Shown here: in pieces, positions 19,716 to 25,934 of the stretch
Position numbering within the stretch: the stretch's first letter is position 1
How the letters are laid out: each line of letters opens with the position of its first letter
Assembly (NCBI RefSeq): GCF_019075875.1
Contig: NZ_JAHOOZ010000001.1
Location: forward strand, 3,906,001 to 3,970,000
From: Novosphingobium sp. G106
Lineage (GTDB): Bacteria > Pseudomonadota > Alphaproteobacteria > Sphingomonadales > Sphingomonadaceae
Length of the DNA: 64,000 nucleotides
Direction: 5' to 3'
Made by a program: the position numbers and the translations under genes
The notes under the pieces: model-generated
The model's input: only the letters and a program-made list of their open reading frames with translations
The model's database searches: none
What the model was told of the DNA's origin: nothing

Positions 19716-20312
19716 TCAGATCAGCCTCGCATCCTTTGCCATCACGAGCGCCGCGCCGATATTGGACACGTTCAGCCGCTTGATGATCCGGGCGCGATGC
19801 ATGTCGATCGTCCTGATGCTCAGGCCCAGCTCATAGGCCACGACCTTGCTCTGCTTGCCCGTCGCCAGCGCACGCAGGACCTCCAGCTCGCGCTCGGACA
19901 GCGTATTGACGGCCCCGAGCTTCGCGCGCTCGGCACGCTGGCGCAGATTGTCCTCGATCTGCTCTCCCGCCCGGCTCAGCGCATCGAGCAGGTTCTCCCG
20001 GCGATAGGGCTTGCGCAGGAAATCGACGGCGCCCGCGCGCATCGCCGAGACCGCGTCGGGCACTTCGCCGAAGCCCGTCAGCAGCACCACGGCGTGATCG
20101 GTATCGAGCTCGCCAAGCCGATGCTGCACTTCCAGCCCGTCGAGATCGGGCAGCCGCAGGTCGAGCAGGACGCAGCCCGGCGGCAGCTCGGATGCAACCG
20201 CGAGGAATGCCTCGCCGGTGGGGAAAGTCTGCACGTCGTGACCTTCGCGCCTCAGGATCAAAGAAAGCGAGGCGAGCAATTCTGGTTCATCGTCGACGAT
20301 ATGGATGTGCAA
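19716..20312 (-). CDS. FixJ-like response regulator (receiver + LuxR-type HTH)
   Basis: This 198-residue regulator has a receiver domain with the acidic pair DDE at residues 7-9, the phosphorylation site D51 in LLDLRLPD, T79 in LLTGFG and K101 in RKPYR, followed by a LuxR/FixJ helix-turn-helix (TLSERELEVLRALATGKQSK, then LSIRTIDMHRARI). All phosphorelay residues are present. It converges with the hybrid kinase gene, with three bases between the stops, which suggests that the two form one pathway even though they are not in one operon. The target genes are unknown. Confidence 0.9.
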   Translation of the reverse strand: MHIHIVDDEPELLASLSLILRREGHDVQTFPTGEAFLAVASELPPGCVLLDLRLPDLDGLEVQHRLGELDTDHAVVLLTGFGEVPDAVSAMRAGAVDFLRKPYRRENLLDALSRAGEQIEDNLRQRAERAKLGAVNTLSERELEVLRALATGKQSKVVAYELGLSIRTIDMHRARIIKRLNVSNIGAALVMAKDARLI

Positions 20313-20432: not shown

Positions 20433-20732
20433 TCAATAACGTTGCCTGCGCTCAAAAAGATCGCGGTACTTTTGCGTGCGTGTAACCCACAGTCCGCGCA
20501 TGCCGAGACGGTCCACGCCGCGCTGCCAGGATACGAATTCTTCCAGCGCGATGCCGTAGCTTTCGCAGACTTCCTCGATCGAGAGGAGCCCGCCGTCGAC
20601 GGCGGCGACGAGTTCTGCCTTGCGATGCGCAATCCACCGCTTGGTCGAAGTCGGGGGCAGCGTTTCGAGCGTCAGAGGCTGGCCCAGGGGCCCGATCACG
20701 GATTGCGGACGGGTCCGCGCGGCTTCGGTCAT
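20433..20732 (-). CDS. sciP: SciP (DUF1153) CtrA-inhibitory regulator
   Basis: This 99-residue protein contains the DUF1153 signature VIGPLGQPLTLETLPP, KRWIAHRKAELVAAVDGGLLS and EEFVSWQRGVDRLGMRGLW. In Caulobacter, SciP binds CtrA at target promoters and blocks transcription in the G1/swarmer phase. The DNA- and CtrA-binding helix residues (RKAE and SWQR) are conserved here. The ATG overlaps the end of the HisKA-domain gene by four bases, so both are probably translated from one message. A CtrA half-site TTAACCAT lies upstream of that message (21170-21177), consistent with CtrA control as in Caulobacter. Confidence 0.9.
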   Translation of the reverse strand: MTEAARTRPQSVIGPLGQPLTLETLPPTSTKRWIAHRKAELVAAVDGGLLSIEEVCESYGIALEEFVSWQRGVDRLGMRGLWVTRTQKYRDLFERRQRY

Positions 20733-21127
20733 GGCCTGCCCGACCGCCCCTTGCGCTGCTGGCGGCGCTGCGAGCCCCAGCGGCTGGCGCGCGTGAAGAG
20801 CGAGCCGCGCGGCAACGGCTGCGCCTCACCGAACGATTTGTGACTCGGCCCGGTGACGGCCTTGGCAGCGGACGCCGAAGCGCGCGTCTCCACCCGGTCG
20901 AGCAGCGCCACCACGGCCACCGTCAGCGCCTCGCTGCCCGTCAGGATGGCGCGGACATAGTCGGCGTGCGCGGTGCTCAGACCCTCGTCCATGAGGAGCA
21001 GTTCGGCGAACCCGCTGATCGAGTTCAGCGGGTTCCTGAGCTCGTGCGAAATCTGATGGAATACAGAGCCGAAGCCCTGCGCATCGGTTTCAATTGTAGT
21101 GAATTCATGCCCCTGTATGCCCATCAC
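20729..21127 (-). CDS. Stand-alone HisKA (DHp) phosphoacceptor-domain protein
   Basis: This 132-residue protein carries a histidine-kinase dimerisation/phosphoacceptor box with H28 in FHQISHELRNPLNSISGFAELL, but has no HATPase domain and no sensor domain. The C-terminal 40 residues are basic (RASRWGSQRRQQRKGRSGRP), which could bind nucleic acid or protein. It is not a simple truncation, because the following gene begins within its stop codon (ATGA overlap with sciP). It could act as a phosphotransfer or dimerisation partner for another kinase or as a decoy. The pairing with sciP suggests a cell-cycle role. Function is inferred. Confidence 0.8.
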   Translation of the reverse strand: MMGIQGHEFTTIETDAQGFGSVFHQISHELRNPLNSISGFAELLLMDEGLSTAHADYVRAILTGSEALTVAVVALLDRVETRASASAAKAVTGPSHKSFGEAQPLPRGSLFTRASRWGSQRRQQRKGRSGRP

Positions 21128-21371: not shown

Positions 21372-22742
21372 TCAGTAGGCGGCGGAAGCCAGCCCGCCGC
21401 GCGAACCCGGCATGGCCTGCGCGAAAGTGCCGCGCGGCGCGGGATCGGATGCGGGCGAGGGCTGCAGCCGCGTCCAATGCGCCATGTCGGCCGTGCTCAG
21501 CCACTGCGCCCGCGCGAAAGGCGTGGCGTTAGTCATGGCATAGAACGCCCGCGCCTCGCCCTCGCTCATGCCCATCGTCCGGTAGTAGTCGAGATAGGAC
21601 CGGTTCTTCGGCGCATCGACCGAATAGTCGTTCGGCCCGCGGCCGGTGTCGTCCTCCCACGAATGCACGGCGGATCGTGCGGTGGGCTCGGCCGAGCGCT
21701 GCGTGCCGGCGAGGAACAGCTCGACTGCGCCCGAAGCGACCCAGCCATTGGCCGGAACATAGGTGACGAGGCCCTTGGCGCGGATCATCCGGCCGAGGCG
21801 CAGGTTGGCGCGGTCGTCCTCCGTCCCCGGGCAATCGACCATGTCGAGCCGGGCGATGCCGGGATAGTCGCGCAGCATCGCCTCGAAGGCGGCCGGGGTG
21901 CGTGCGTCGGTGACTCCCGCCATTGCCGCGTGGGTATCGTCGATTACCCGGAAAGGACCGTAAATGACCGGCCGTGTGGCCGGCGAGGCGGGCGCGGCGC
22001 GGGCAAATTGCGGCGCGTCTGCCTGGACCGGCAACGGCTTGCGTGCGGGATCGTCGAACCGCGTCCAGCGGTCCATCTCGCCCGCGGTCATCCACTTGGC
22101 GCTGGAGAAGGGCACCGAGTTGGTCATCGCGTAGAACGAGCGCGCCTCGTCCTCGCTCATGCCCATGGCGCGGTAATAGTCGAGGTAGGCGCGATTCTGC
22201 GGCGCGTCGGCGGCATAGTCGCCGGGTTCGCGGCCGGTATCGTCCTCCCACGAATGCACCGCGAATTCCGCGCCGGGTTCGGCGCGGCGGCGGACGCCGG
22301 CGAGGTAGAGCTCGACCGCACCCGAACCGACGAAGCCGTCGCCGGGGACATGGGTCGCGATGCCGCGGGCGCGGATCATCCGGCCGAGGCGCAGGTTGGC
22401 GCGATCGTCCTCGGTACCGGGGCAGTCGATCATCTCGATCGTCGCGATGCCGGGATGGTCGCGCAGCATTGCTTCGAAGGCGGCGACGGAGGTTTCGTCC
22501 GTAATCCCCTCGAGCGCGGCCCGGGAATCGTCGATCAGGCGAAACGGGCCATAGGCCTGGCCGCCGTGCGAGGCTTGCGGCTGTGCCAGTTCGACCACCC
22601 GCTCGCTGCCATTGTCCGGCACGGGCGAGACGGGCGCGGGATCGGCTTCGACGAAGGCGAGATCATAGGAGATGACCTGCGCCGCGATCGGCTGCGGAAG
22701 CAGGGCAAGCAGGGGAAGGAGGGAACGGACAAACTGGCGCAT
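21372..22742 (-). CDS. Secreted protein with two tandem ClpP/crotonase-like domains
   Basis: This 456-residue protein has a signal peptide (residues 1-21, ending PIAAQ) and two homologous repeats at about 65-229 and 262-426 that share long identical stretches such as CPGTEDDRANLRLGRMIRA and HSWEDDTGR. Each repeat resembles a periplasmic ClpP-like serine-protease fold: a candidate nucleophile in GSGAVELYLAG (S140; S338 in the second copy) and a histidine 22-23 residues later in VHSWEDD (H163 and H360). The similarity to ClpP-like proteases is from pattern only, so activity is uncertain. A perfect CtrA box lies 49 bases upstream of the start. It ends in a Pro/Ala/Gly-rich tail. Confidence 0.75.
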   Translation of the reverse strand: MRQFVRSLLPLLALLPQPIAAQVISYDLAFVEADPAPVSPVPDNGSERVVELAQPQASHGGQAYGPFRLIDDSRAALEGITDETSVAAFEAMLRDHPGIATIEMIDCPGTEDDRANLRLGRMIRARGIATHVPGDGFVGSGAVELYLAGVRRRAEPGAEFAVHSWEDDTGREPGDYAADAPQNRAYLDYYRAMGMSEDEARSFYAMTNSVPFSSAKWMTAGEMDRWTRFDDPARKPLPVQADAPQFARAAPASPATRPVIYGPFRVIDDTHAAMAGVTDARTPAAFEAMLRDYPGIARLDMVDCPGTEDDRANLRLGRMIRAKGLVTYVPANGWVASGAVELFLAGTQRSAEPTARSAVHSWEDDTGRGPNDYSVDAPKNRSYLDYYRTMGMSEGEARAFYAMTNATPFARAQWLSTADMAHWTRLQPSPASDPAPRGTFAQAMPGSRGGLASAAY

Positions 22743-22790
22743 GCCGCATTGCTGCGGCCGAGCTGGTTACAGTGAGGCTGAATTCCACGG

Positions 22791-22806
22791 TTAAAGCAGA
22801 GTTAAC
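22791..22806. promoter_or_regulatory. CtrA binding site (TTAA-N7-TTAAC)
   Basis: TTAA at 22791-22794, seven bases, then TTAAC at 22802-22806 gives an exact match to the full CtrA consensus. It lies 49 bases upstream of the start of the minus-strand tandem ClpP-like gene and about 455 bases before acnA, so the former is the likely target. SciP, which modulates CtrA, is encoded 2 kb away. Confidence 0.65.
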
Positions 22807-22990: not shown

Positions 22991-23261
22991 GTCTATCTTG
23001 CATGGATTAGCGCAGCTTGCTTCGCGGATCGCGACGATAGTTTTGCAGTTTTCGCCAAAATCGTCGGGGGGACGGGGAATTTCCAACCTCGGCCAGGCTC
23101 GCCCGAATGGGCCGCGATTCTCCCGGAATCCCGCGCGCCCCTTGACCTGACGCGACGGAACGCGCATCGGCGGCGCCAACAGAATCCGTTCCGCGCTGCA
23201 GCATTTGCTTGGCCGCGGGCCGCTCGGCACAGACAAAAAACCATCGAGGGAAAAAAGGCGC

Positions 23262-25934
<2,673 letters not shown>

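Follow-up and report, generated by a model that had tools for sequence, protein, structure and literature searches.

A tandem ClpP-fold protein, predicted to be exported, in a few Novosphingobium genomes and its single-domain relatives upstream of rpmH

To our knowledge, ClpP-fold enzymes outside the cytoplasm are few. ClpP (PF00574) presumably corresponds to MEROPS S14, and the alphaproteobacterial proteins with a CxSAC motif are taken here to be COG3904-like. The layout of SppA is two tandem ClpP-fold domains in an envelope protein. In PMC9360617, SppA is described as having a Ser-Lys dyad and a membrane anchor. The tandem protein analysed here is encoded in a 64-kb window (the whole stretch of DNA that was analysed). 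Compared with ClpP, it is predicted to be exported, has two domains per chain, and has neither an Asp at the position of the ClpP catalytic Asp nor a Pfam PF00574 match. It resembles E. coli SppA (PDB 3bf0) in having two ClpP-fold domains in one chain, an arrangement that is alike only to a TM-score of 0.22, and differs from SppA in having its own Ser and His in each domain and no conserved Lys. A parent family of single-domain proteins in Sphingomonadaceae has the same domain, the same Ser and His, and in many cases an upstream element at the same place; however, these proteins have one domain and are encoded upstream of rpmH, whereas the tandem gene lies beside acnA. No description of the family was found in the literature searched, which covered COG3904, ClpP-like periplasmic, and rpmH-rnpA-yidC contexts and few subscription papers. 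Our preferred reading, which we give an even chance of being right, is that the tandem protein works as an enzyme outside the cytoplasm, probably in the periplasm, and that its pair of ClpP-fold domains originated by copying of a single-domain gene and tandem duplication.

The tandem gene is an open reading frame of 456 amino acids (21372..22742; here and below, features are on the minus strand unless stated otherwise). Residues 1-21 (22680..22742) form a predicted Sec signal peptide, a hydrophobic N-terminal export signal ending PIAA-Q, judged by eye and in agreement with the earlier note on this DNA. As that note also described, two strongly similar domains follow: domain 1 (residues 62-230, 22053..22559) and domain 2 (residues 258-430, 21453..21971) are identical at 114 of 169 aligned residues. 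An assembly artefact as the source of the tandem is rejected, given that one position in three differs between the domains and that other genomes have the gene as well. In particular, orthologues are kept at 71% identity (best segment) in two further Novosphingobium records, Novosphingobium sp. JCM 18896 (L003) and isolate PMG_125 (L004). Between the window and these orthologues, dN/dS is about 0.2 in each domain (window versus L003: domain 1, 0.134/0.652; domain 2, 0.149/0.774). Judged by these sequence comparisons, both tandem domains are under purifying selection, with Ser and His kept.

Searches with standard profiles give little. The window protein matches no Pfam or NCBIfam model at its cut-off, and 41 single domains have nothing significant in Pfam (best E 0.013) or NCBIfam (none at E up to 0.1). 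Solved structures searched by sequence yield nothing useful. Among phages, there is no match; among plasmids, seven records are matched, none with a place over more than 80% of the query, and the best (44.8% identity) is a Novosphingobium megaplasmid.

Structure models predict a ClpP/crotonase fold, so the fold proposed earlier is ClpP-like by prediction, not an unrelated one. The full-length model has two ClpP-fold domains in one chain, whose mutual placement is modelled with low confidence (pTM 0.46). The best whole-chain Foldseek match is E. coli SppA 3bf0 (E 5.2e-8), but with a TM-score of 0.22 and an rmsd of 17.9. This match would suit a working SppA whose two domains jointly form a Ser-Lys dyad, and SppA is likewise an envelope enzyme according to PMC9360617. 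However, the dyad is rejected by a search across the core domain of 68 distinct domains, in which no position has Lys conserved at more than 80%. Ser and His are kept in both domains of the tandem protein, and the TM-score is low, so that we consider a functional SppA very improbable. The Pfam profile Peptidase_S49 (SppA) has no match reported for the window protein (E up to 10) or for the 41 members (E up to 0.1).

Profile comparison relates the family to the CxSAC proteins, seven of which are among the weak matches of a class-wide search. The match between the two profiles in hhalign (prob 98.1, E 1e-13, 152 columns) is flattered, because a match to the family was how the seven CxSAC proteins had been chosen. 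The CxSAC profile matches ClpP with prob 95.1 and E 3.3e-8, the ClpP profile being built from 13 of 26 loci tried. A direct alignment of the family with ClpP, although weak (prob 5.9, E 0.0064), pairs the Ser, His, and Asp of ClpP with S140, H163, and A215, respectively; a global hhalign alignment of the two failed. Even with E values of up to 10 allowed, the window protein has no PF00574 match, and the families reported for the 41 members (E up to 0.1) do not include PF00574. The family and the CxSAC proteins share Ser and His, which are present in all seven examples, but in the family the two Cys residues flanking the Ser are replaced (V-x-S-G-A/G), and conserved motifs such as GPF, PGTxDD, HxW, and MTN are added.

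The candidate active-site residues are Ser140 (22323..22325) and His163 (22254..22256) in domain 1, and Ser337 (21732..21734) and His360 (21663..21665) in domain 2. The second serine had been placed at S338 in the earlier note; the correct position is S337. The Gly-Ser-Gly-Ala motif described there for each domain is present in domain 1 and reads Ala-Ser-Gly-Ala in domain 2, while His-Ser-Trp-Glu-Asp is present in both, beginning at 163 and 360, and the spacing from Ser to His, given as 22-23, is 23 in both. Conservation in homologues, proposed as a check on the two serines, is complete: all 68 domains compared carry both the Ser and the His. They are also kept in the 11 more distant relatives whose alignments were read (4/4 intermediate and 7/7 CxSAC relatives). 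Ser140 and His163 are thus supported as active-site residues by their alignment with the ClpP Ser and His and by their invariance. If so, each domain of the tandem protein would keep a Ser nucleophile and a His base, giving two active sites. Packing of the two domains against each other, as a dimer within one chain and perhaps as in SppA, is probable, and the enzyme would probably hydrolyse peptide or other acyl bonds in small envelope substrates, loosely like SppA.

The position of the ClpP catalytic Asp (A215) is Ala in all 68 domains, in a register that comes from the weak direct alignment, and the ClpP triad is therefore incomplete. The earlier designation as a ClpP-like serine protease accordingly stands for the fold, the Ser, and the His and does not extend to the Asp; the activity is putative. 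The main rival starts from the same Ala: the protein would have the ClpP fold but serve as a pseudo-enzyme or a scaffold for binding, with its conserved Ser, His, Trp, and Asn making up a site for a ligand or for assembly. That a residue is invariant is no proof of catalysis, because Trp165, Tyr190, Tyr204, Thr207, and Asn208 are invariant too, as are G109, T110, N116, and A215; D113 is kept in 67 of 68 domains. Moreover, 59 of 68 domains have an Arg at the position preceding Ser140, but all six tandem domains have Ala or Gly there. On the other side, the Ser and His extend unchanged to the 11 relatives, and the pair is retained in both tandem domains, which evolve under purifying selection. 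We regard a pseudo-enzyme as a possible but doubtful alternative. The Arg is also replaced by Ala or Gly in L006 and L009, two of the three single-domain copies of the tandem-bearing genomes; because the loss is shared in this way, the active site of the tandem clade may have shifted, and not via the tandem alone.

An acid might instead be supplied by Glu144, four residues past the Ser, which is Glu in 67 of 68 domains and Asp in the remaining one. This position presumably corresponds to the catalytic Glu of enoyl-CoA hydratase, and the putative enoyl-CoA hydratase 3g64 ranks 31 among the structural matches of the full-length model. With Glu144 as the acid, the active site would mix ClpP and crotonase features, and the protein would be a hydrolase of a different type (esterase, thioesterase, or acyl transferase). 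An acid is present at this position in three of the four intermediate relatives, but in only one of the seven CxSAC relatives, and acyl-CoA is not expected in the periplasm. We consider this quite unlikely and retain the two-site enzyme with Ser and His as the preferred reading.

Single-domain relatives are common in the genus. The family is matched in 155 of 195 genus genomes (own genome included), nearly all as single-domain proteins, and in 68 of 149 genomes sampled from Sphingomonadaceae (own genome included), some of these matches being weak (E up to 9e-4). Of 289 genomes of the class, 13 have matches; four of the 13, counting the window's genome, belong to the same family as the window. 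The two-domain form occurs in 3 of 195 genus genomes (G000, G275, and G151) among the matches listed, a count that rests on the alignment range of those matches; G275 and G151 are taken to be the same records as L003 and L004. In the genomes searched, the tandem protein is rare, and it is probably a duplicated derivative of a widespread single-domain protein whose gene precedes rpmH.

The single-domain genes have a conserved setting. An rpmH pattern lies 57-535 bases downstream on the same strand in 61 of 63 distinct single-domain loci, which remain from 76 after 13, for the most part tandem or duplicate, were left out beforehand; the two loci without it are contig ends, at 140 and 191 bases. 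Clusters of open reading frames read as rnpA, yidD, and yidC are present in 59, 57, and 56 of the 63 loci, respectively. In one locus (L007:4007-7578), Pfam identifies, on the downstream side, L34, the RNase P protein, YidD, and YidC and, on the upstream side, a divergent gene for a comM-like Mg-chelatase. The rpmH pattern was not found in the available flank of four loci from three genomes of other families (G600, G550, and G470; matches at E <=1e-25), so the link to rpmH is shown here for Sphingomonadaceae. The single-domain relative thus represents a conserved link of a predicted exported protein to genes for membrane-protein insertion.

The tandem gene has a different setting. In all three genomes, it lies between acnA and genes for HisKA, DUF1153, and LuxR-type regulator proteins. 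In the window, the divergent neighbour is the aconitase gene acnA (23205..25934, plus strand; named by eye, with an uncertain start codon), which starts roughly 500 bases from the start of the tandem gene. Downstream and on the same strand as the tandem gene, Pfam identifies a HisKA-domain protein (20729-21127) and a DUF1153 protein (20433-20732), together spanning 20433..21127, and a response regulator with a LuxR-type DNA-binding domain (19716..20312); the synteny is kept in L003 and L004. In 24 other loci (of 27 listed), the tandem gene is absent from the 760 to 1510 bases upstream of acnA. The HisKA-domain protein has 132 amino acids with no ATPase domain reported, and shares only 51-52% identity with the corresponding proteins of L186 and L187. 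DUF1153 is, by our assumption, linked to SciP. DUF1153 is matched 11 times in the window's genome (G000), compared with 0-3 times in each of 25 relatives, and a copy elsewhere in the genome matches better than the one in the window; the neighbouring gene is therefore no longer considered as the principal SciP-like gene of this genome.

Upstream of the tandem gene, the perfect CtrA box that had been noted earlier is found at 22790..22806 as GTTAA-N7-TTAAC, with the TTAA at -63 from the ATG. It is the sole TTAA-N7-TTAA in the 64-kb window, where 0.02 is expected. Genome-wide, TTAA-N7-TTAA is not enriched, with 11 places against 20 for a reversed control, and for the extended TTAAC-N6-TTAAC the 7.2-Mb genome has a single place, compared with two for the reversed control. 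The box lies within a conserved element at positions -64 to -24 (22766..22806), defined by the positional composition of 66 distinct upstream regions, in which one base exceeds 55% at -61, -60, -51 to -47, -39, -38, -36, -29, -28, and -26 to -24, among others; the start codons were chosen by script, and the positions depend on that choice. The best match to TTAA-N7-TTAA with at most two mismatches falls at -65 to -61 in 37 of the 66 relatives, compared with 0.56 in dinucleotide shuffles and 1, 0, and 8 for reversed, TATA, and ATTA control motifs. With at most one mismatch, 14 regions have a match (shuffles, mean 1.78, maximum 6), 13 of them at -62 or -63. These counts are not independent because the sequences share ancestry. 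In the tandem genes by acnA, the position of the element is unchanged; the window has a perfect copy, whereas those of L003 and L004 each carry two mismatches.

For several alphaproteobacteria, PMC7200025 and PMC9437464 describe TTAA-N7-TTAA(C) as the sequence bound by CtrA. From its sequence and position, the upstream box is likely a CtrA-type site, and CtrA would be the bound factor. The description of the gene as cell-cycle-controlled goes too far: it is the position of the box that is conserved, and CtrA is described as dispensable in Sphingomonas melonis in PMC7200025 and PMC8116508. The recurrence of the element suggests a tie between CtrA-type regulation and membrane-protein insertion genes in sphingomonads.

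In a 66-row tree, domain 1 forms one clade (99/93) and domain 2 another (100/98), and the two clades are sisters with moderate support (93/65). The tandem domains join single-domain copies of the same three genomes (98/88); each tandem-bearing genome also has such a copy (L002, L006, and L009). Most likely, a single-domain gene upstream of rpmH-rnpA-yidD-yidC was copied to the acnA side in an ancestor of a few Novosphingobium. The upstream CtrA-type element would have been carried along with the copied gene, and an internal tandem duplication would have doubled the domain. A ClpP-fold chain could thus double with both Ser-His pairs retained, unlike SppA. The family as a whole, with invariant Ser and His, no ClpP Asp, no Pfam or NCBIfam assignment, and linkage to rpmH in 61 of 63 loci, would be either a new envelope hydrolase or a new pseudo-enzyme. 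A fuller proposal combines an undescribed, exported ClpP-fold family of hydrolases tied to rpmH-rnpA-yidD-yidC and a CtrA-type promoter, a non-canonical Ser-His-Glu triad with the Glu on the nucleophile helix, and, in a few Novosphingobium, a single chain with two active sites acting on envelope peptides; taken together, we consider it unlikely.

The single-domain copy in the window's genome (L002:1453-2253) has a long branch (0.55) and no upstream element at the chosen start codon, as if the tandem copy had taken over. Many single-domain relatives outside Novosphingobium (e.g., L031, L027, and L018) carry a conserved C-terminal tail, [IL]AYLDL-x-x-x-LP, past a variable linker. Among the 11 places with TTAA-N7-TTAA in the genome, a Pfam scan covered three picked by eye (L090, L094, and L095), which lie upstream of chemotaxis receptor, PilZ, and DUF3391 genes.
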